In this document: one piece after another, positions 4,702 through 27,582 of the stretch
How the letters are laid out: the number at the start of each line of letters is the position of its first letter
Position numbering within the stretch: the stretch's first letter is position 1
Source: a virus
Virus record (IMG/VR): IMGVR_UViG_3300032050_000658
Location: 1 to 27,582 of that record
Strand: one strand, 5' to 3'
DNA length: 27,582 nucleotides
Program-made: the position numbers and the translations under genes
The notes under the pieces: generated by a model
The model's database searches: none
Told to the model about the DNA's origin: nothing
What the model saw: the letters and a program-made list of their open reading frames with translations, nothing else

Positions 4702-6144
4702 TTAGACGTATTGTGTTGTTACTGGTTGTGCCACAGTGAATTCGATTTCGTAGTTGAACATCTTTTGTCGAGCGTATGTTTGTACTTCGTAACTGCTAGA
4801 CTTGATGGTAACTGCGTAAGGTCCTTTGTTTTCGGGACTGTACCCAAGGACATGCGGACTGTTAAAGAGTCCTTTGAGAAACTCACTCTGTTCTTCGGTA
4901 ACCCAGTCTGTCATTGCGGTATATGTAGTCTCGATGGTCTTGTTGTTGACAGAGTCTCCGTAAGTAGCAGGTGACAGTGTGTTAGGACCATAGATGCCTG
5001 ACGAGTTGTACCTAGGTTCTTTATAGTATGTCTCTGTCTTGCTGGCGTACTTTTCTGTATTGCGTAGAGTAAAGTTGAACCAGTCACGACCACCTAGGTT
5101 GTTCAACCATGAGAATCTCCAACGGCCGAATCCACTAGGGTTACAGTCATCTATCACAAATTCCATCCTTTCACTGAGCGGGGCTCCAAGGGCGCAGCTA
5201 GATCCTGTTATGCCCGTAGCGGGAGCGGCGAACAGTTGGACAGTATATCGCTCGGTACCTGGCGCAATCGCTCCTATAAGGTTCGTTACGTCGGCAGGAC
5301 CGCAAGCGATCTGACCAACATTGTAGACGTATGATGCAGTGGTTCCTACGTTCACTGTGCAAGATGACCATGGACCACCTCCTGCACCCAGAGTATTGTA
5401 GACTTCATCGGTACCGTAAGGCACAGACGTTCCACCGTAGAAGAATGAGAACTGAGCAGCGTAGACATAAAAGCGAGTTCCTGTTCCGTCGGTACGGTTC
5501 CAGAAAGTAAGAGTATGTCGGTCATCGCTGGTAACCACGTTGGACCTTAGGTTGTTGGTGCCTGTCACCGAGTGCGATCTGTAAAGACCTGTGCTACCCG
5601 TGGCAGGTTTCATAGAGTAAGGACGGTCTGTAAGCGTAGGATTCACCTCGAACTCGTAGGTCTGCATTGCGTCCTTGTAGCCAGCGTGGAACCTAACGCT
5701 TGTTCCGGTGTTTCCCGTGGCAAGTACTACACCGTCTCCGCGAGCAGCGAGCCTGAAGGCGGGTGAACCTGCCGTATTGCCGATTCCGTTGTAGATCGTG
5801 AGCACACCGCCTGTCGCTCCGCGGTACTCTTCACCGGTCAGGACAAACATTTCACCGTTTAGAGTGGATCCCGTTCCCCACTGTAGGTTGATGTTCTGTG
5901 GATCTTCCAACAGTCCAACACTAGGATCTAGGTAACCCGCAGCAAAGGCTCCCAGGTTGATGATCCCGTAGCCGGCAGGGTTTGGTCTCTGCTTGAGACG
6001 GTTTACGAACTGTCCGTTCACGTAGACATCGAAGACGTACTTCATGTCGAGCTGCGCTGTCTTGTCGCTCAGGCACTGCCACACCAAGTCGGTGTAGGAC
6101 GGGTTCCATACGTATGGTCGGTGTTGTACTGATACTATGCTCAT
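4702..6144 (-). CDS. Structural tail protein, probably distal tail or tip component
   Basis: A 480-residue protein starting MSIVSVQHRPYVWNPSYTDLVW. It is rich in Gly, Thr, Tyr and Asn and has no membrane segment or enzyme motif, as expected for a beta-structured virion protein. The C-terminal third includes FGRWRFSWLNNLGGRDWFNF and later WVTEEQSEFLKGLF, segments I associate with tail proteins encoded just ahead of the tip gene in Bacteroidota phages. Its start overlaps the end of the -1 frame of the tail-assembly chaperone by 4 bases (6141-6144), and its stop lies 1 bp from the next gene. The exact tail position of the product cannot be told from sequence alone. Confidence 0.68.
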   Translation of the reverse strand: MSIVSVQHRPYVWNPSYTDLVWQCLSDKTAQLDMKYVFDVYVNGQFVNRLKQRPNPAGYGIINLGAFAAGYLDPSVGLLEDPQNINLQWGTGSTLNGEMFVLTGEEYRGATGGVLTIYNGIGNTAGSPAFRLAARGDGVVLATGNTGTSVRFHAGYKDAMQTYEFEVNPTLTDRPYSMKPATGSTGLYRSHSVTGTNNLRSNVVTSDDRHTLTFWNRTDGTGTRFYVYAAQFSFFYGGTSVPYGTDEVYNTLGAGGGPWSSCTVNVGTTASYVYNVGQIACGPADVTNLIGAIAPGTERYTVQLFAAPATGITGSSCALGAPLSERMEFVIDDCNPSGFGRWRFSWLNNLGGRDWFNFTLRNTEKYASKTETYYKEPRYNSSGIYGPNTLSPATYGDSVNNKTIETTYTAMTDWVTEEQSEFLKGLFNSPHVLGYSPENKGPYAVTIKSSSYEVQTYARQKMFNYEIEFTVAQPVTTQYV

Positions 6145-6431
6145 ATTGTCTTGTTCTTAAATTTAGCCATCATTTTCTGATGTTCCATTTCTAGTCTTTT
6201 TGCTTCGTCGCGTTTTCTTGCAAGGTAATTGAATGCTGTTCTAACATTGAGTCGAGATGCTCGTTCAAGTTCAAGAGGAGTCTCTCCCGCGCAGACGTAG
6301 AGTATGTCTTGCCAGGTTCGAGCAATCGTAGCAGGGTTTCTGACAGTTGGTTCACTGCTTGCGGATTCTTCTCCATCTCCGATCTTAAAGAGTCGACTAT
6401 AGCTTTTGTACAAGCTTCCGCGAACGCGAAA
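6141..6431 (-). CDS. Tail assembly chaperone, -1 frame extension (gpT-like)
   Basis: This -1 frame is open directly from the slippery site and reads FRVRGSLYKSYSRLFKIGDG onward for 96 residues to a stop at 6141. It has no ATG of its own near the junction; a TTG at 6413 is the only nearby alternative start. Joining 6937-6431 to 6431-6141 gives a 265-residue fusion. The extension includes TWQDILYVCAGETPLELERA and a basic helical end (YLARKRDEAKRLEMEHQKMM). It is the probable equivalent of lambda gpT, which reaches the tail tube protein while the G part binds the tape measure. The region 6191-6430 is coding in both frames. Confidence 0.78.
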   Translation of the reverse strand, partial: FRVRGSLYKSYSRLFKIGDGEESASSEPTVRNPATIARTWQDILYVCAGETPLELERASRLNVRTAFNYLARKRDEAKRLEMEHQKMMAKFKNKTI

Positions 6432-6937
6432 AAAAAAGCGGTAGCTCCTCTCATCGCATCGAGGTCCAGCTCTAGGAAATCATCGGCGTTGGCACCATGC
6501 TTTTTAGAATCGTACTCCTCGATCACATATGTTGTGCCCCAGTAGCCAGTGACTGGTCGGTAGAGAATCGCCAGTAGCTCGTGAGTCCTGTAGTCTGCGT
6601 TGTGACTGTGCATGATCAGCTCAGCGTCTGCGAGTTCTCCTACACTGATCTCGTCCATGTGAAGGAGCCCGTAGTGCTTGTCACCCAAACGGATCTCGGT
6701 CTGCAAGGGATTGTCTTCCTTCACCTCGAACAACTTCTGTACCTCGTTCCACAGTGGTACGAATTGGTAAGGTCTGAGCTTTCTGATGTCGTCTTCGGGA
6801 CAGCCTGATAAGTGGCTGATGATTCCTGCCGCAGCGTTGGTTCCTTCGTACCACGATTTCTCTCTCATGACGTAGAGATCTTTGAGTCTAACCTTGTCTA
6901 TGGTGTACTCTTCTTTTCCTATTTTGAATTTGATCAT
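6191..6937 (-). CDS. Tail assembly chaperone, zero-frame product (gpG-like)
   Basis: A 248-residue protein, MIKFKIGKEEYTIDKVRLKDLY at the N-terminus, whose gene sits between tail-completion genes and the tail tip genes. In lambda-type phages this position holds gpG and the frameshifted gpG-T, which bind the tape measure during tail assembly. The first 169 residues are shared with the frameshift product. After the T-run at 6429-6437 the zero frame continues for 79 residues (AFAEACTKAIVDSL and onward) to a stop at 6191. The start overlaps the upstream gene by ATGA (6934-6937). The function is assigned from gene order and the frameshift layout, not from a recognised motif. Confidence 0.8.
   Translation of the reverse strand: MIKFKIGKEEYTIDKVRLKDLYVMREKSWYEGTNAAAGIISHLSGCPEDDIRKLRPYQFVPLWNEVQKLFEVKEDNPLQTEIRLGDKHYGLLHMDEISVGELADAELIMHSHNADYRTHELLAILYRPVTGYWGTTYVIEEYDSKKHGANADDFLELDLDAMRGATAFFFAFAEACTKAIVDSLRSEMEKNPQAVNQLSETLLRLLEPGKTYSTSARERLLLNLNEHLDSMLEQHSITLQENATKQKD
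6429..6437 (-). other. Programmed -1 ribosomal frameshift slippery site
   Basis: On the minus strand the gene reads GC T TTT TTT TTC. The T TTT TTT heptamer (6437-6431) fits the X XXY YYZ rule in the correct phase for a -1 shift. The -1 frame is open from here to 6141. A small hairpin (TTCGC, loop GTTC, GCGGA) follows at once and may help pausing. Confidence 0.85.
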
Positions 6938-7368
6938 TTCTTAATTGTCTTAAAGTATAGTCTAACTTCGTCCTTCATATCGGACAAGATCTGTTCTCGT
7001 AGTCTGTTGGCTCTTGCTTGCCCTCCCATGCTGGTCCAGTACTGTGGCTGGATCCCGTAAGATCCTTTCTGATAACCACGGAACTCTGACAGACGGAAAG
7101 GACTAGAGTTGCGAGTCCCAAACTTGATTGTGTTGTAGTCGCCTGTTCCCAGGTTCGTATAGACACCGTACGCAAAGTAGCCGACCTTCACTGTGAAGTC
7201 GCCGCCTTTGGTTCCTACCTTTACGTCGAGACTAGATGCTAGTGCTCCGGTAGCGTAAGGGTTCTGACCTGGCTGAGGAATCTGCGTCTTGATCACGCGT
7301 TCCATCTCGTCTCGTAGTTCATCGAGACGTTTCTTAATCCTACTGCGTATTCTTGGTCCTAGGCTCAT
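6934..7368 (-). CDS. HK97 gp10-like head-tail or minor tail protein
   Basis: A 144-residue protein starting MSLGPRIRSRIKKRLDELRD. The start at 7368 is chosen because it overlaps the upstream stop as TAATG; a longer frame to 7521 would lie inside the preceding gene. The basic helical N-terminus followed by PYATGALASSLDVKV and YFAYGVYTNLGTG is the pattern of the HK97 gp10-like family, which takes part in joining heads and tails. It lies between the tail-terminator-like gene and the tail chaperone, the usual place for this family. The stop overlaps the chaperone start by 4 bases. Confidence 0.68.
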   Translation of the reverse strand: MSLGPRIRSRIKKRLDELRDEMERVIKTQIPQPGQNPYATGALASSLDVKVGTKGGDFTVKVGYFAYGVYTNLGTGDYNTIKFGTRNSSPFRLSEFRGYQKGSYGIQPQYWTSMGGQARANRLREQILSDMKDEVRLYFKTIKK

Positions 7369-7838
7369 TAGTATTCGATGAATGCAGCGTTGCAGAGATC
7401 CAACGGATTCTTGGTGATTATTTGTAGACTGGCTGACCAACCTGCGGTGCTTTGCTTCTGTGCTTCCACAAAAGGAGTACAGGTGATGGGAGCCGATATG
7501 TTTACGTCGAGCTGTCCCCAAGTGGTCAACCTAAACTTTGCCAGGATATCTTGAAGCACTGACAGTGTTGTGTCGTGTACCTCGAGCACTGCGGCGCGAT
7601 TCTTACGGGCTAGATCCATTACGATTAGGTTGGCGTTATAGATCGCGAATCCGTTTTGGAAAGTAACGTTCAGTGGCTGTAGGAACACATAGATGTACTG
7701 CTGTTCGGGATAGTCGGGTTCGTTAGTCTCGACGTCTGACAGAGCTATACTCCAGTTAAAGAACTTGACAGCAAGGTGAGAATCACAGATCTGTTGGAAG
7801 ATTCCTATGAGATCTTTGTATGTAGTCGGTGTTGCCAT
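7368..7838 (-). CDS. Putative tail terminator or tail completion protein
   Basis: A 156-residue protein, MATPTTYKDLIGIFQQICDS at the N-terminus. The core (YIYVFLQPLNVTF, then YNANLIVMDLARKNR and a helical segment with VLQDILAKF) has the alternating strand and helix look of small tail-completion proteins in Bacteroidota phages. No enzyme motif is visible. It overlaps the upstream gene by 1 base at 7838 and the downstream gene by 1 base at 7368, and sits just before the gp10-like gene, the classic position of a tail terminator. The assignment is mostly from context. Confidence 0.5.
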   Translation of the reverse strand: MATPTTYKDLIGIFQQICDSHLAVKFFNWSIALSDVETNEPDYPEQQYIYVFLQPLNVTFQNGFAIYNANLIVMDLARKNRAAVLEVHDTTLSVLQDILAKFRLTTWGQLDVNISAPITCTPFVEAQKQSTAGWSASLQIITKNPLDLCNAAFIEY

Positions 7839-13246: not shown

Positions 13247-13867
13247 ATGGTTCATAAAGTACAATCTAACTTCGTCTATCAATTGGATCCTAGTGATCAT
13301 CAACGTGTGGTAATGTGGTGGAGGAATGTGGGTGACTTCACCAATTACATGAAAGCAGTTGAATTGCCTTATGACTTGTATTATTGTTTTTCCGATGATT
13401 ACGAAAGAATTAACAAAGGTCCTAACGACGGAAAGAAAGTACTTATGACCAATGACCAAAGATTCTGTGTCAGCCGCAAATATGTAGGAGAGATCCACAA
13501 GTATTCGATGAGCGGTGAATACGCGGGTACAATCATGATGGATGAGTTTCGTAGATTGGGTGGAGGGCAACACCTTGTTGGTGTTTACGGATCTCCCTAC
13601 GGCTGGCCAGAACTCCGCGGTCTTAACATTATGTCGATGAATCCACAGCTTGGATTCTATTGGGATTTCGTAAAGTACGATGCGATCCAACCGGTGTACA
13701 TACCTTTGAGGTCTGCCACACTATTGGGTGATGATGCTTACGATAAGTTGATGAACGGTGAACTGATACTTAAGAATCCCGATAGCCTGTTGAGACAGAA
13801 ACTCATCGAGAGCATTAAAAAGAAGAAACTACAACATGAAGAAGTATCAGAGGAAGACCTATACTGA
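13247..13867 (+). CDS. Unknown protein, first gene of plus-strand island
   Basis: A 206-residue protein starting MVHKVQSNFVYQLDPSDHQR. It is rich in Tyr, Trp, Gly and Asp. Segments such as FCVSRKYVGEIHKYSMSGEY and VGVYGSPYGWPELRGLNIMS suggest a folded mixed alpha-beta protein; the last 40 residues are charged and helical. There is no signal peptide and no catalytic motif I can name. The leader is AT-rich (TAAATAAATAAAC) without a Shine-Dalgarno, as usual in Bacteroidota. The gene overlaps the GIY-YIG gene by 32 bases, so they form one unit. It may be regulated by the terminator at 13151-13189. Confidence 0.78.
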   Translation: MVHKVQSNFVYQLDPSDHQRVVMWWRNVGDFTNYMKAVELPYDLYYCFSDDYERINKGPNDGKKVLMTNDQRFCVSRKYVGEIHKYSMSGEYAGTIMMDEFRRLGGGQHLVGVYGSPYGWPELRGLNIMSMNPQLGFYWDFVKYDAIQPVYIPLRSATLLGDDAYDKLMNGELILKNPDSLLRQKLIESIKKKKLQHEEVSEEDLY

Positions 13868-14312
13868 GTTCTATGTTTACGAACTCCTTGATGACAATAA
13901 TGAGTTATTGTATATAGGCCAGACAGCAGTGCCTGAGAAACGTTCTAAGTCACACTATTACAATAAAGGTGGGCTATTCTATAAAAGAAAAGACATTCGT
14001 CTAAATGTCATCGAAACATATTCTACTCGACGCGAAGCAAAGCAACGCGAGCATGAACTGCAAAAGTACTACTGGCCATTAGTAGAGACTGACTTCGAGA
14101 AAAACCTTAAAGGCTGTAAGAGAGGTGGAGAGAATCCACAGAGAGAAGGAAGAGTCAAAGGCGGTGCAATAGGAGGAAAGAAAGGTGGAATAACATCCAC
14201 CCACCGTCTTTTTTACATGTCATGCGGCCGTGAGATTAAGACCCACGGCGCGATGATGTATCATAAAAAGGTTTGTGGTTGCGAAGTTAATTACTGGCGA
14301 CAGCTTGCTTAG
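13836..14312 (+). CDS. GIY-YIG nuclease, homing-endonuclease-like
   Basis: A 158-residue protein. The GIY-YIG core is YVY (13-15) and YIG (26-28) with the conserved Arg as R36, followed by REAKQREHELQKYYWP that supplies a candidate catalytic Glu (E72 or E74). After the nuclease a Gly/Lys-rich linker (RVKGGAIGGKKGG) leads to a C-terminal Cys/His segment, CGREIKTHGAMMYHKKVCGC, which could form a small zinc finger for DNA binding. This layout fits free-standing phage homing endonucleases. Its 3' end overlaps the convergent holin-like gene by 26 bases (14287-14312). Confidence 0.85.
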   Translation: MKKYQRKTYTEFYVYELLDDNNELLYIGQTAVPEKRSKSHYYNKGGLFYKRKDIRLNVIETYSTRREAKQREHELQKYYWPLVETDFEKNLKGCKRGGENPQREGRVKGGAIGGKKGGITSTHRLFYMSCGREIKTHGAMMYHKKVCGCEVNYWRQLA

Positions 14313-17497: not shown

Positions 17498-18580
17498 TTA
17501 CTTTAAATCTCCAAACAAGTACCAAGTAGTATCGTTTTGCTTAATTAAGGTTCCTGCTGAATACTGACTTGATAGTGCTTTATAGTTATTTGCTGAATTT
17601 ACTGTTACACCGGTTGCACCAGCAATGACTACATCACCTGCTCCACCTCTAAGAACCATAACCTGTGTTCCTGTAGCAAAGGCAACAGAACCAACAGTAG
17701 GAACAGATATAGTTGCAGTAGCACCTGCGGTTACCTGAACCACTTTATTTTGGTCAGATAATGCAAGTTCATAATCGGTTGTTTGATTATTGAAAAGAAC
17801 GATTGATGTATCTATACCAGCAGCACCTGATGAACCTGATGTTCCACTAGAACCTGATGTTCCGCTAGATCCTGAAGTTCCTGAGTTACCGCTTGTTCCA
17901 CTAGAACCGCTTGTTCCACTTACACCTGATGTTCCACTAGATCCGCTTGAACCGTCTGTACCTGATGTTCCACTAGAACCTGATGATCCGTTAATTCCTG
18001 ATGTACCACTAGATCCTGATGTACCGTTAATTCCTGAAGTGCCGCTAGATCCTGATGTACCACTAGATCCGCTGGTTCCAGAGTTTCCGCTTGTGCCACT
18101 AGATCCACTGGTTCCTGATGTTCCACTAGTTCCTCTTGTTCCGCTTGTACCCGATGAACCACTTGTACCGTTAGCACCTGAGGTTCCACTAGTACCGTTG
18201 GCACCTGATGTTCCTGATGAACCTGATGTACCACTAGATCCACTAGTTCCTCTTGTTCCACTTGTACCTGATGAACCGCTAGATCCTGAAACACCTGATG
18301 TTCCACTAGTACCACTAGATCCGCTTGAACCTATATTTCCTGGGCCAACCCAGTTTCCTGATGAATCAATGACTTCACCGTAACCGTCGATTCTGTATGA
18401 TTCAGCAGTGAATTGACTGTCTACAACAACTTCTGTTGTGCTGATCTTTAGTGGACTATTTACACCAGCACCGTCACCAACATTTTGCAATGCACCACCG
18501 GTAAGACCAGTGTCATTAGTGATGGTCACAATAGCCTTATAGGTATCGTCAATGTACTGTCCTGTAAGATTTTTGCTCAT
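17498..18580 (-). CDS. Collagen-like fibre protein with GTSG repeats, shorter copy
   Basis: A 360-residue protein. Residues 1-81 form a head domain with STTEVVVDSQFTAESYRIDG and YGEVIDSSGNWVG, also present in the 723-residue fibre. Residues about 82-252 are a run of GTSG/GSSG/GNSG/GANG/GINGT triplets of the G-x-y type, expected to form a collagen-like triple helix. The C-terminal 107 residues (from AAGIDTSIVLFNNQTTDYEL) look like a small beta domain that could trimerise the fibre. It lies between two other putative adhesin genes. Confidence 0.8.
   Translation of the reverse strand: MSKNLTGQYIDDTYKAIVTITNDTGLTGGALQNVGDGAGVNSPLKISTTEVVVDSQFTAESYRIDGYGEVIDSSGNWVGPGNIGSSGSSGTSGTSGVSGSSGSSGTSGTRGTSGSSGTSGSSGTSGANGTSGTSGANGTSGSSGTSGTRGTSGTSGTSGSSGTSGNSGTSGSSGTSGSSGTSGINGTSGSSGTSGINGSSGSSGTSGTDGSSGSSGTSGVSGTSGSSGTSGNSGTSGSSGTSGSSGTSGSSGAAGIDTSIVLFNNQTTDYELALSDQNKVVQVTAGATATISVPTVGSVAFATGTQVMVLRGGAGDVVIAGATGVTVNSANNYKALSSQYSAGTLIKQNDTTWYLFGDLK
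17826..18337 (-). repeat. GTSG collagen-like coding repeat, array 1
   Basis: About 510 bp of 9-base units encoding Gly-x-y triplets, mostly GTS and GSS, with GNS, GAN, GIN, GVS, GTR and GTD variants. Wobble bases vary between units, so selection on the protein repeat is apparent. Confidence 0.9.
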
Positions 18581-18606: not shown

Positions 18607-19419
18607 TTAATAGTTTCTCCCTAATGTTGTACAGAATGTAGACACAGCTGTATGGAAGTCTTCAACCATTTGATTAGATGCTAGTGCTGTACCCCAACTA
18701 AAGAATGCAGTCGTGTTATCATTACCGAATCCAATAGATCCTAATGTACCAATTAAGTATGATGTGTTTGTATTATTGATGTTAGAATCTGATGCTGATG
18801 ATGAAGCATAAATTGACATTGGTGTTCCTCCACCTGCAGTAAGTTCTCTCCAGAAAGCTACATTTGTGTTAGAAGTACGGTTAGTTGCTTGTGCAAAACC
18901 AGTTCCAACATCTCCTCCTAAAGAAACCGCTGCTCCTCCGTCGAACCACTCGAGCTGAGAACATGCACCGTGTGATACGTAAGGACTTCCGCCAGGTTGT
19001 GATGAACCATCATATCCACAAGTGATTGTTCCAGGATTGTTTACGTAACGATAGTAAAACTTATTACCGTTGTAACTATGTACAGGAATATCTGTATCAA
19101 AGTATGAAGTTCCATTAGAAGTAATCCCATCAGCATTAAATGTAAATCCTCCAACAAATGTTCCTGTTGATGATGGATATTTAAGATTGACTTTACATGC
19201 TTGAGATGAACTACCAACAAAAGGAAATGTATGCCATAAAGTATTCCATATGTTAAAGTCCTTAAAGTCAATTACAAGTTGGTTTACGGCATCTTTTTCT
19301 AAATCCGTTAATGAACCACCGCTAGCAACAACACCGTCAAAGAATGCCTGTGCGTCTGGATCATAAGATGGTCCAACTGAAGCGGGTGATTTATAGAATC
19401 CTATTGGTATTGTTATCAT
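18607..19419 (-). CDS. Tail-fibre-associated protein (DPDAQAFF family)
   Basis: A 270-residue protein. SYDPDAQAFFDGVVASGGSL, TDLEKDAVNQLVIDFKDFNI and WNTLWHTFPFVGSSSQACKV form the N-terminal module seen in many Bacteroidota phage adhesin genes (DxDAQAFxxA, then a YPFVGG-type motif and NLKYP). The remaining part is Gly/Ser/Thr/Asn-rich and probably a beta sandwich of the LamG or concanavalin type. It lies between the two collagen-like fibres and overlaps the upstream fibre gene by 4 bases. Probably part of the host-contact apparatus. Confidence 0.7.
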   Translation of the reverse strand: MITIPIGFYKSPASVGPSYDPDAQAFFDGVVASGGSLTDLEKDAVNQLVIDFKDFNIWNTLWHTFPFVGSSSQACKVNLKYPSSTGTFVGGFTFNADGITSNGTSYFDTDIPVHSYNGNKFYYRYVNNPGTITCGYDGSSQPGGSPYVSHGACSQLEWFDGGAAVSLGGDVGTGFAQATNRTSNTNVAFWRELTAGGGTPMSIYASSSASDSNINNTNTSYLIGTLGSIGFGNDNTTAFFSWGTALASNQMVEDFHTAVSTFCTTLGRNY

Positions 19420-21587
19420 GATGTATATCCTGTTTGTGAAACTCCGTAAAATGATACACCGTCGAACATAAATGAGAATATGTCAACGAATCCTGCAGTT
19501 CCACTTGGTGTTGGTGGTGTATTGGCTGGCCATTTAACGTTTGTAGGCCACTGAATTACTCCAGCTGTTCCTTGCACAACTTTAAGAATGTAAGTACCTC
19601 CTACAACACCATTTGAAAACACAAATGGTTGTGGTCCTGTAGCAAGTGTTCTTTGTTGTACGTTTCCTTGGTTCCAGTTTATGGTTGCAGTAGCACCTGT
19701 TGCACCAACCGATGCAGTGTAACCACCGTTTGCTTGTCCAGAAGATTTGAAGTTAGCGTAAGAAGTAATACCAGCCGAACTTATTTCAGCAGCAAGAAAC
19801 TCAGAGTCTGCCAATACAGTGTATATGTCGAACTTGGTTTCTGTAGTGCTTACTTTAGTTGCTTGGATTCTTTGCAATCCAGTAGTAATGCTGTCGAACT
19901 CAAATGATATAGATCCATCATTAGCTGCATTTGCATTAACGTTAAATCCTCTAAATCCTGTTCCGGTTACACCTGCCGTAAGAATTGCTTCAAATGTAGC
20001 TAAAGGATTGGCAACATTCGTTGCGAAAGATTCTAAAGATCTGAATGCATTGTCATAAACTAATGCTGCAGAACCTGTGATTCCTGTTCCTGTTCCAAAT
20101 CCTACTTGTTCAGCAGGCAACACAGGAGTAATTCCGCTGGTTCCGCTAGAACCTGATGTTCCAGATGTACCGTCAACACCTGATGTTCCCGATGTTCCGT
20201 TTACACCTGAAGTACCACTAGAACCACTAGTTCCACTTACACCGCTAGATCCGCTAGTTCCACTAGAACCGTTTGTTCCGCTAGTTCCTGACGAACCTGA
20301 TGTGCCACTAGATCCATTTGCACCGCTGGTACCTGATGAACCTGATGTACCGCTGGTTCCTGGTGCACCATTTGCACCACTAGTTCCACTTGTACCGTTG
20401 ATACCCGATGTTCCACTAGTTCCTGATGTACCACTTGGTGTAGTAGTGACAATGAACAGAACATCTTGGCTATTTGTGAAAGTATATGTTGAAGTTACTA
20501 AAGTAACACCATATGTCCAGTATGTAGTATTGTCAGTCTTTGTGGTAATCTCCCAAGTTTGATAGTTTGCTTGGTTATTTCGATCCTGAATAGTAACTTT
20601 TGTACCAATTGAAAGGTTACCTAAGAAAATATCAACGTTATTCGTTAATTCATCGGTGTCTGAAACAATAATCTGTGTTGAACTTGTTTGTGTAGCGTTG
20701 TTCCAAATAAGGAATCCTGCTCCAGGATCACCTGATTGTGATGTTGTCTTTGCTTTATAGTTAAAGAAAGAGTTTGAAAGACCGCTTGTTCCGCTGGATC
20801 CTGATGTTCCGCTCGAACCATTAGTTCCCGATGTACCGTTAGTTCCGTTTGCACCCGATGTACCACTAGAACCTGAAGTTCCGCTAGATCCATTTGCACC
20901 GCTGGTTCCTGATGATCCGCTAGTTCCAGAGTTTCCACTAGATCCGCTGGTTCCACTAGAACCATTAGTTCCTGACACACCCGAAGTACCGCTAGATCCA
21001 CTAGTTCCTGATGAACCGCTGGTTCCGTTAGCGCCGCTTGTTCCTGATGTTCCGTTAGCACCGCTTGTTCCGCTAGAACCATTAGTACCGCTAGTACCGC
21101 TGGATCCACTTGAACCGTTAGCGCCTGATGTACCACTAGATCCACTAGTACCGCTCGTACCTGATGAACCTGATGAACCCGATGTTCCTGATGTACCAGA
21201 GCCACCACCTGTACCGCCATTCACATGTACGATTACGTTTCCTGTAGCACCTGGTGTAACAGTCACAGCTCCTGTAAAGTCAATGAACTCTGCGTCTGCT
21301 TTAAGAACTGTTCCGTTCTGTCCTACGTCTACGAATCCACCAACAGGTACACCTACCCATTCACCATTGTTGTTTATGACTTCACCGTACCCGTCGATAT
21401 CGACAGATTGAGCAGTGAATTGGTCAGTCATTTTGACTTCAGTCGTGCTTACCTCCATAGGAAAGGCTGTGCCCGTTCCGTCGGTAAGTGCTTGTAGCTG
21501 ATTTGTTAGTTGTCCGTTACCTGTCGCACCAACGGTTACAAGTTGCTGATACGACTGACGAATCTTTCTTCCTTTTAAGTTGCTCAT
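19416..21587 (-). CDS. Long collagen-like tail fibre with two GTSG shafts
   Basis: A 723-residue protein. Domain order: head domain 1-128 (STTEVKMTDQFTAQSVDIDG and YGEVINNNGEWVG, shared with the 360-residue fibre), first GTSG/GSSG shaft about 129-268, a globular insert about 269-383 (SNSFFNYKAKTTSQSGDPGA and onward), second shaft about 384-485, and a C-terminal beta domain (from TPVLPAEQVGFGTGTGITGS) ending in SFMFDGVSFYGVSQTGYTS. Two shafts with an inserted knob are expected for a jointed trimeric fibre. The GTSG shaft is a pattern known from phage and other viral collagen-like proteins. The next gene overlaps by 4 bases. Confidence 0.82.
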   Translation of the reverse strand: MSNLKGRKIRQSYQQLVTVGATGNGQLTNQLQALTDGTGTAFPMEVSTTEVKMTDQFTAQSVDIDGYGEVINNNGEWVGVPVGGFVDVGQNGTVLKADAEFIDFTGAVTVTPGATGNVIVHVNGGTGGGSGTSGTSGSSGSSGTSGTSGSSGTSGANGSSGSSGTSGTNGSSGTSGANGTSGTSGANGTSGSSGTSGSSGTSGVSGTNGSSGTSGSSGNSGTSGSSGTSGANGSSGTSGSSGTSGANGTNGTSGTNGSSGTSGSSGTSGLSNSFFNYKAKTTSQSGDPGAGFLIWNNATQTSSTQIIVSDTDELTNNVDIFLGNLSIGTKVTIQDRNNQANYQTWEITTKTDNTTYWTYGVTLVTSTYTFTNSQDVLFIVTTTPSGTSGTSGTSGINGTSGTSGANGAPGTSGTSGSSGTSGANGSSGTSGSSGTSGTNGSSGTSGSSGVSGTSGSSGTSGVNGTSGTSGVDGTSGTSGSSGTSGITPVLPAEQVGFGTGTGITGSAALVYDNAFRSLESFATNVANPLATFEAILTAGVTGTGFRGFNVNANAANDGSISFEFDSITTGLQRIQATKVSTTETKFDIYTVLADSEFLAAEISSAGITSYANFKSSGQANGGYTASVGATGATATINWNQGNVQQRTLATGPQPFVFSNGVVGGTYILKVVQGTAGVIQWPTNVKWPANTPPTPSGTAGFVDIFSFMFDGVSFYGVSQTGYTS
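20134..20436 (-). repeat. GTSG collagen-like coding repeat, array 2
   Basis: About 300 bp of Gly-x-y triplet codons forming the second shaft of the 723-residue fibre, with GTSG, GSSG, GING, GANG, GAPG and GVNG variants. Confidence 0.88.
20783..21203 (-). repeat. GTSG collagen-like coding repeat, array 3
   Basis: About 420 bp of Gly-x-y triplet codons forming the first shaft of the 723-residue fibre. It uses the same set of variants as the other two arrays, which could promote recombination between fibre genes. Confidence 0.88.
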
Positions 21588-26423: not shown

Positions 26424-27582
26424 TTAAAGTCTTGATAAGTTGTTGATTTGGTAGTCTGCTTGTTGTTGGTCAGATACATCGGTAGCCACAACGTATGTCT
26501 TGATAGGAGGAGGTGAACTCAATTTAGATTCTAAAGAGTTAAGCTGGTTCATTGCTTCCATTCCTACCATACCTCCGTCTGCAAACTTGCGGCCTCCACC
26601 AATTTGGTTGATCGCTGAGATTACTCCTGCGTACATACGAGTAGAGTTCTTGTTCACTACGTATTCACCGCCTTCCAATTCGCCAAAGGCTGTTTGGATT
26701 CCACCCATTGCGTGTGATGGTCCGTTGAGTAGACCACCTTGTGCGAACTTAGCAGGAGCAGGTGCGCCACCACCGTTGCCTCCACCGCCACCTCCACCTT
26801 TGGTAGGTATCTGAGTGCTGGTGATTTTCTTAACGTTCAAGAGACCAGCTGCGACAACAGAGGCAGCCAGAATAAAGTTGAACGGAGGAGGTGCCGCTCC
26901 CAAAGCTTGCGAAGCACCCTTGTAAGTGTTGATGACCGCATCGGCAACTGCAAGAGCCTTACCGGCTTTGGTTTCTTCTCCAACGAGGCTAGCAACGTTC
27001 TGAATTGCTCCTTGTACTGCATCGAGTGCAGCAGCGCGGTTCGCGGCGATTTGATCAGCCGTACTCTTTGTGAATTCTGCATAATCAGCTTCAATTTGTT
27101 TACGTTCCTCCGCAGTGAGTTTCTCATTTTGGAGTAAGGCAGCGTACTGTGCGTTCTTTTGGTCAGCAACCTCTTGCTGTTTCTGTAATGTCAAGTTGTT
27201 GAACTCATCACCCAGCGCGATCTGTTCTTGAAAGAGAGCATAGTCCTTCTCGCGTTGTGCGGCAGCAGCTGCGTCTCGTAGTTCAGCGAGTTTTAGCTGG
27301 TATGTCTGTTCATACTGTAACTTAAGGGCGTTCTTTTGCTCCTCGGTGAAGGTAGTCTCCTCGAGTGCCTTAAGATCGTTCTCTTTTTGGATCTCTAACT
27401 CCTTCTCTGCGCGTGCCTGCTCGTCCTCGATGCTAAGAACCGTAAATTCCTGTTGCATTGCGAGCAACTTATCATCGTATGCCTTCTGTTGCTCTTCTCG
27501 TTTCTTCTGACCATCGTTCTGTATCTTGGTCTTGTCTTGCTGGTACTTAGCGTCGGCAGCCAATGTCAATGCTTCGATGGTC
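26424..27582 (-). CDS. Tape measure protein, C-terminal part (runs off right edge)
   Basis: The frame is open from the right edge to a stop at 26424. It starts in the coiled-coil repeat shared with 1-404, continues as coiled coil (KLTAEERKQIEADYAEFTKS), and then shows the classic C-terminal end of tape measures in Bacteroidota phages: KAGKALAVADAVINTYKGAS, an Ala-rich hydrophobic stretch (FNFILAASVVAAGLL), NVKKITSTQIPTK, a run of Gly, FAQGGLLNGPSHAMGGIQTA, FGELEGGEYVVNKNSTRM and AINQIGGG. If the ends are one locus, the joined protein is 807 residues (1-1669 joined through to 27178-26424). The protease gene starts 18 bp downstream. Confidence 0.88.
   Translation of the reverse strand, partial: TIEALTLAADAKYQQDKTKIQNDGQKKREEQQKAYDDKLLAMQQEFTVLSIEDEQARAEKELEIQKENDLKALEETTFTEEQKNALKLQYEQTYQLKLAELRDAAAAAQREKDYALFQEQIALGDEFNNLTLQKQQEVADQKNAQYAALLQNEKLTAEERKQIEADYAEFTKSTADQIAANRAAALDAVQGAIQNVASLVGEETKAGKALAVADAVINTYKGASQALGAAPPPFNFILAASVVAAGLLNVKKITSTQIPTKGGGGGGGNGGGAPAPAKFAQGGLLNGPSHAMGGIQTAFGELEGGEYVVNKNSTRMYAGVISAINQIGGGRKFADGGMVGMEAMNQLNSLESKLSSPPPIKTYVVATDVSDQQQADYQINNLSRL
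27179..27582. repeat. Terminal repeat, right copy
   Basis: The counterpart of 1-404, with the same length and phase and 23 mismatches. The perfect match is limited to 27179-27305 (127 bases) at its left side, plus blocks of about 81 and 61 bases further right. See the left copy for interpretation. Confidence 0.95.

Follow-up and report, generated by a model that had tools for sequence, protein, structure and literature searches.

The window, that is, the whole 27,582-nt stretch of viral DNA analysed here, carries on its minus strand a gene (6191-6937) that is read from an ATG at 6937 to a stop codon at 6193-6191 and encodes a putative tail-assembly-chaperone-type protein of 248 aa, composed of an N-terminal domain and a zero-frame tail. 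A run of nine T (T9, 6429-6437), the only A/T homopolymer of at least 8 nt in these 27.6 kb, lies inside the gene in the context ACC GCT TTT TTT TTC GCG, with GCT TTT TTT TTC read from codon 167, and holds the heptamer T_TTT_TTT in phase at 6437-6431. The -1 frame is bounded by stops at 6482 and 6143-6141 and is open between them, from 6479; a shift at the run would yield a 265-aa fusion ending in a -1 tail of 98 aa counted from the run start (6141-6437), whose core is conserved in homologues. After the run the zero frame continues for 78 codons over this -1 tail, leaving both frames open along a dual-coded stretch of 238 nt (6191-6428). Example peptides are LLLNLNEHLDSMLEQHSITLQENATK for the zero-frame tail and TWQDILYVCAGETPLELER for the -1 tail. 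At its end the -1 frame shares ATGA (6141-6144) with the next gene (4702-6144), whose start codon overlaps the -1 stop; this -4 offset recurs in 22 relatives.

These elements bear out what the sequence-only reading had described: the heptamer in the right phase, a -1 frame open to 6141 and lacking its own start at the junction, the 265-residue fusion beside the 248-residue product and the long continuation of the zero frame past the slip site. No ATG, GTG or TTG precedes the run in the -1 frame, the first candidate being TTG at 6413. An internal start of its own for the -1 frame was considered and rejected, as candidates lie only past the run, within a tail that one relative (L157, below) carries fused. 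Transcripts one U short would enter the third frame, which closes 2-21 codons past the run among the members listed.

Upstream (6934-7521, minus strand) lies a neck or tail-completion gene resembling HK97 gp10 (phrog_5, E 1.5e-4; PF04883, E 0.009, under the curated cut-off). A tape-measure-like gene with coiled coil, found at the contig ends, is located two genes past the chaperone gene. The locus is thus placed between connector/tail genes and the tape measure, with two intervening genes, unlike in lambda. Weak matches to Pfam Phage_TAC_7 were obtained for six of 56 relatives (best E 5.6e-4) and none for the window protein, and profiles compared against HK97 gp13, lambda G and lambda T yielded no match. 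Neither structural model found a match in the PDB with Foldseek; in a viral structure library the matches were mostly uncharacterised phage proteins, that of phage P12024S included. Confidence in the zero-frame model is good up to about residue 200 and low in the remainder, in agreement with the shorter zero-frame tails of a distant clade; for the -1 tail the model is a helical domain whose core is confidently predicted. It is the gene order, together with expression logic and the weak Pfam matches, that points to a tail chaperone, without clear homology to lambda G. The gpG/gpGT position assigned in the earlier reading fits in neighbourhood and expression logic but has no counterpart in sequence or PDB fold, whether to lambda G or to HK97 gp13. 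We propose by analogy that the gene works like gpG/gpGT and claim no strict family membership beyond that.

About 90 distinct homologues, many of them 20-30% identical, were retrieved from IMG/VR using the protein, two neighbours and two alignments as queries. Run lengths were read with one parser in 88 of these, whose counts share phylogeny: at the same protein position, T9 was found in 77, T10 in nine and T8 in one, T7 never occurred, and every homologue carrying the run has T_TTT_TTT in phase. Aligning the C-terminal tails, as had been suggested, showed a conserved core in the -1 tail, which measures 75-106 aa in the complete members carrying the run, with the exception of L141. The zero-frame tail extends roughly 25-46 codons past the run in the distant clade and mostly 75-107 in the clade of the window, and in 22 of 85 members the zero frame passes the -1 stop.

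The sequence-only reading had named homologues without the T run, or with an early -1 stop, as the observations that would speak against it; each exists as a single case and the layout is otherwise kept. In L157 (2587-3279) a shorter N-terminal domain is followed in the same frame, without a T run, by a -1-type tail, i.e., a natural single-frame fusion. The sole real exception is L141 (2492-3350, T10), where a -1 stop (TAA) lies seven codons past the run and the remaining tail is intact and conserved; this stop may be real, a sequencing error or a sign of other recoding. A tblastn search of phage isolates with the window protein or with relative L044 returned no match, the cultured isolates P12024S and P12024L being matched only via the distant clade, and no confirmed homologue was found in bacterial genomes. 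A near-identical contig, L028 (3490-4310, same contig as L002), has the same T9 as the window; one base of a GAGATC in the chaperone gene is missing there, directly behind six clustered differences, so that the zero frame breaks at residue 96; this is probably a sequence error or a recent mosaic.

Reduced synonymous change across the overlap, the signature anticipated from the sequence, is found in the relatives. Using row-disjoint pairs of relatives, some from the same clade, we observed differences at 0.16 of the -1-frame fourfold sites in the overlap (42/269) vs 0.42 of the zero-frame fourfold sites in the single-coded region upstream (179/429; Fisher p 1.4e-13, pooling sites from related pairs), and the distribution of changes over the codon positions shifts from 28/13/60% to 38/23/40%. 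Suppression extends through the whole overlap. Zero-frame fourfold sites within it are also seldom changed (44/272). In a middle group with overlaps of about 50-65 codons, fourfold differences along the same -1 tail amount to 3/43 (7%) inside the overlap vs 11/23 (48%) outside. Synonymous sites were used instead of zero-frame residues because the invariant Gly at residue 209 follows of necessity from a -1 Trp (TGG) that is itself invariant; residue conservation in the zero frame was accordingly dropped as evidence. Because fourfold sites are suppressed along the overlap in either frame, these comparisons show that both frames are read and under purifying selection, as two alternative tails on the same DNA.

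It could be argued that only the -1 tail matters and that the zero frame is open by chance, its long tail being passive. In the window alone, the long zero-frame opening is in fact only mildly unlikely (p = 0.035 with synonymous codons resampled, 0.067 with codons permuted within the tail), the protein is poorly modelled beyond about residue 205, and the distant clade manages with 25-46 codons. Across the family, zero-frame openness is far beyond chance: with the -1 protein fixed and codons redrawn, the zero frame would mostly close within 2-57 codons (medians), whereas 49 relatives, which as related sequences are rows of one phylogeny, stay open for 60-103. Over the same related rows the geometric mean p is 0.07 under the within-tail permutation null vs 0.002 under the resampling null. 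Since -1 fourfold suppression also runs through the whole overlap, and only there, we regard a passive zero-frame tail as improbable. For the window's own overlap, dual coding is suggested by the relatives together with its p of 0.035-0.067, its own gene being compared with one near-identical contig. Still more improbable is a sequencing error, or replication slippage at the T run that causes phase variation, even though homopolymers of such length are prone to replication errors: no run-bearing homologue shows the fused register, variants with T8 or T10 retain the zero frame, the near-identical contig is also T9, and both frames are under selection.

How the frame transition takes place is a separate matter. 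Tail-chaperone frameshifting is textbook ribosomal recoding, and the well studied tail chaperones all use ribosomal slips. Slipping of the ribosome requires T_TTT_TTT, and for this a run starting at codon position 3 needs T7, one starting at position 2 needs T8 and one starting at position 1 needs T9. Our counts by start phase are T9 44, T10 4 and T8 1 for position 3; T9 28 and T10 5 for position 2; and T9 5 for position 1. The codon phase of the run has changed at least nine times on the tree with its length staying at about nine. Residues at the run edges vary with the phase (S/N/G/A ahead of the run and L behind it in one, V/L and Y/W in another) and, as they changed along with it, the DNA run is better kept than the encoded protein. 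In the rest of these contigs, runs of length 7, 8 and 9 number 313, 72 and 27, each added base making them about 3-4 times rarer. A length that is steady through phase changes, when longer runs are rarer elsewhere, indicates that run length itself appears to be under selection.

Baranov and co-workers take a 9A/9T run whose length is conserved in homologues as their criterion for purposeful transcriptional slippage, and selection against A/T runs is visible from length nine in a large share of bacterial genomes (PMC1088944). The family presents just such a run, of about nine and conserved through three codon phases. RNA structure past the run was searched for and not found (mean MFE z 0.02 over 32 sequences; window z -0.5). 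Given the conserved T9 length across phases and the lack of structure past the run, RNA polymerase slippage is the reading we prefer, at a fair level of confidence, over a ribosomal slip. The latter, a -1 frameshift at T_TTT_TTT of the kind known from lambda G/GT and P2 E/E', would give the same two products and is a possibility to which we assign about half that weight. It has in its favour that the heptamer is in phase in every run-bearing member, T9 always containing T_TTT_TTT and thus a good slip site, that an SD-like AGAGGAG stands about 10 nt before the run in the window, and that ribosomal slips are the rule for tail chaperones, some without a stimulator (PMC5009743). Stimulators are usual, not obligatory, some phage slips needing none; the SD-like motif occurs in just 11 of 88 members, the purine-rich AGAGGAG of the window included, and no structure lies downstream. 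Moreover, T9 persists even where the phase makes T7 or T8 sufficient, and no alternative slippery heptamer appears in about 90 diverse homologues. Polymerase and ribosomal slippage may also both be at work. Of the programmed ribosomal -1 frameshift put forward in the sequence-only reading, two products via a frame transition at the T run are upheld by layout and selection; the ribosomal nature of the slip is the less likely part, the phase-independent T9 fitting the polymerase better.

We therefore consider it reasonably probable that this is a tail-assembly-chaperone-type gene with two products obtained mainly through transcriptional slippage at T9. Faithful U9 transcripts would give the 248-aa zero-frame protein. 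At T9, RNA polymerase would sometimes add one U (or drop two), and ribosomes on the slipped transcripts would read the -1 frame into the 265-aa protein, which keeps the common N-terminal domain but has another helical tail. On the model of lambda gpG/gpGT, binding of the tape measure protein would fall to the shared domain and recruitment of the tail tube protein to the T-like -1 tail. The occurrence of slippage, its mainly transcriptional nature, the ratio of products and the chaperone role are all predictions from sequence.

The layout, and the selection on both frames, suggest two products of the gpG/gpGT type. Lambda G/GT and P2 E/E' likewise consist of one gene with a shared N-terminal domain and a -1 extension giving two products, located between head-tail connector genes and the tape measure. 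Their zero frames end 18 nt (lambda) and about 20 nt (P2) past the slip, compared with 238 nt here; the SEA-PHAGES mean is 26 nt (PMC10885494). The contrast with lambda drawn in the earlier reading stands, but a long overlap is not unique to this phage, since zero-frame tails of at least 75 codons occur in 44 of 85 complete members. Further differences from lambda and P2 are the slip element, here a length-conserved T9, and the lack of a sequence or fold match. In its run the gene resembles Shigella mxiE and spa13, Thermus dnaX (A9), Citrobacter and Yersinia tssM and IS elements, which likewise have a run of the A9/T9 class and two products per gene; conserved run length is a mark of transcriptional slippage genes (PMC1088944, PMC4256274, PMC5009743). 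None of those is a tail chaperone, and slippage was proven experimentally there, whereas here we infer it.

The nearest cultured counterparts are the Nonlabens (Persicivirga) phages P12024S and P12024L (CDS 38 and 40, respectively), with a homologous N-terminal domain, T9 and an 83-aa -1 tail. They differ from the window in that the zero-frame tail is short (27 codons) and the gene comes directly after the large terminase. In the deposited annotation of both (L163:2974-3668, L164:2974-3668) the 83-aa -1 tail is missed and a small downstream ORF (P12024S_39 and P12024L_41) is called instead. Gene callers miss the -1 tail entirely, as in these records, and the existence of two cultured relatives makes the mechanism directly testable.

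That tail chaperones use frame transitions, their zero frame closing shortly past the slip, is already known; new are the 238-nt overlap, with selection on either frame seen in relatives, and a conserved element that is a run of polymerase-slippage length. No description of transcriptional slippage in tail chaperones was found in the open-access literature. For the family as a whole, a bolder reading, only slightly less probable than that for the gene itself, is that a large group of mostly uncultured phages, with flavobacterial cultured members, makes its G/GT pair by polymerase slippage on T9, and that one branch turned the overlap (240-320 bp) into two complete C-terminal tails. A polymerase route to both products, if true, would mean that selection keeps the outcome over the mechanism, comparable to dnaX. 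The overlap is also a clean natural case of overprinting, with the same tail single-coded in one branch and dual-coded in another.

Other features of the window were noted. The two window ends divide the tape-measure-like gene into minus-strand pieces at 2-1669 and 26424-27569: an open-ended ORF of 556 aa runs from 1669 and is continued by 27569-26424, a repeated coiled-coil segment being common to both. Probably the genome is circular or circularly permuted, with the contig opened within this gene. On the same strand, 17498-18580 and 19416-21587 encode two proteins with long collagen-like GTSGSSGTSG repeats, which are probably fibre or virion decoration proteins. On the plus strand, a 158-aa ORF (13836-14312) with a YELLD...LLYIGQT motif adjoins 13247-13867 (same strand) and, by eye, looks like a GIY-YIG endonuclease.
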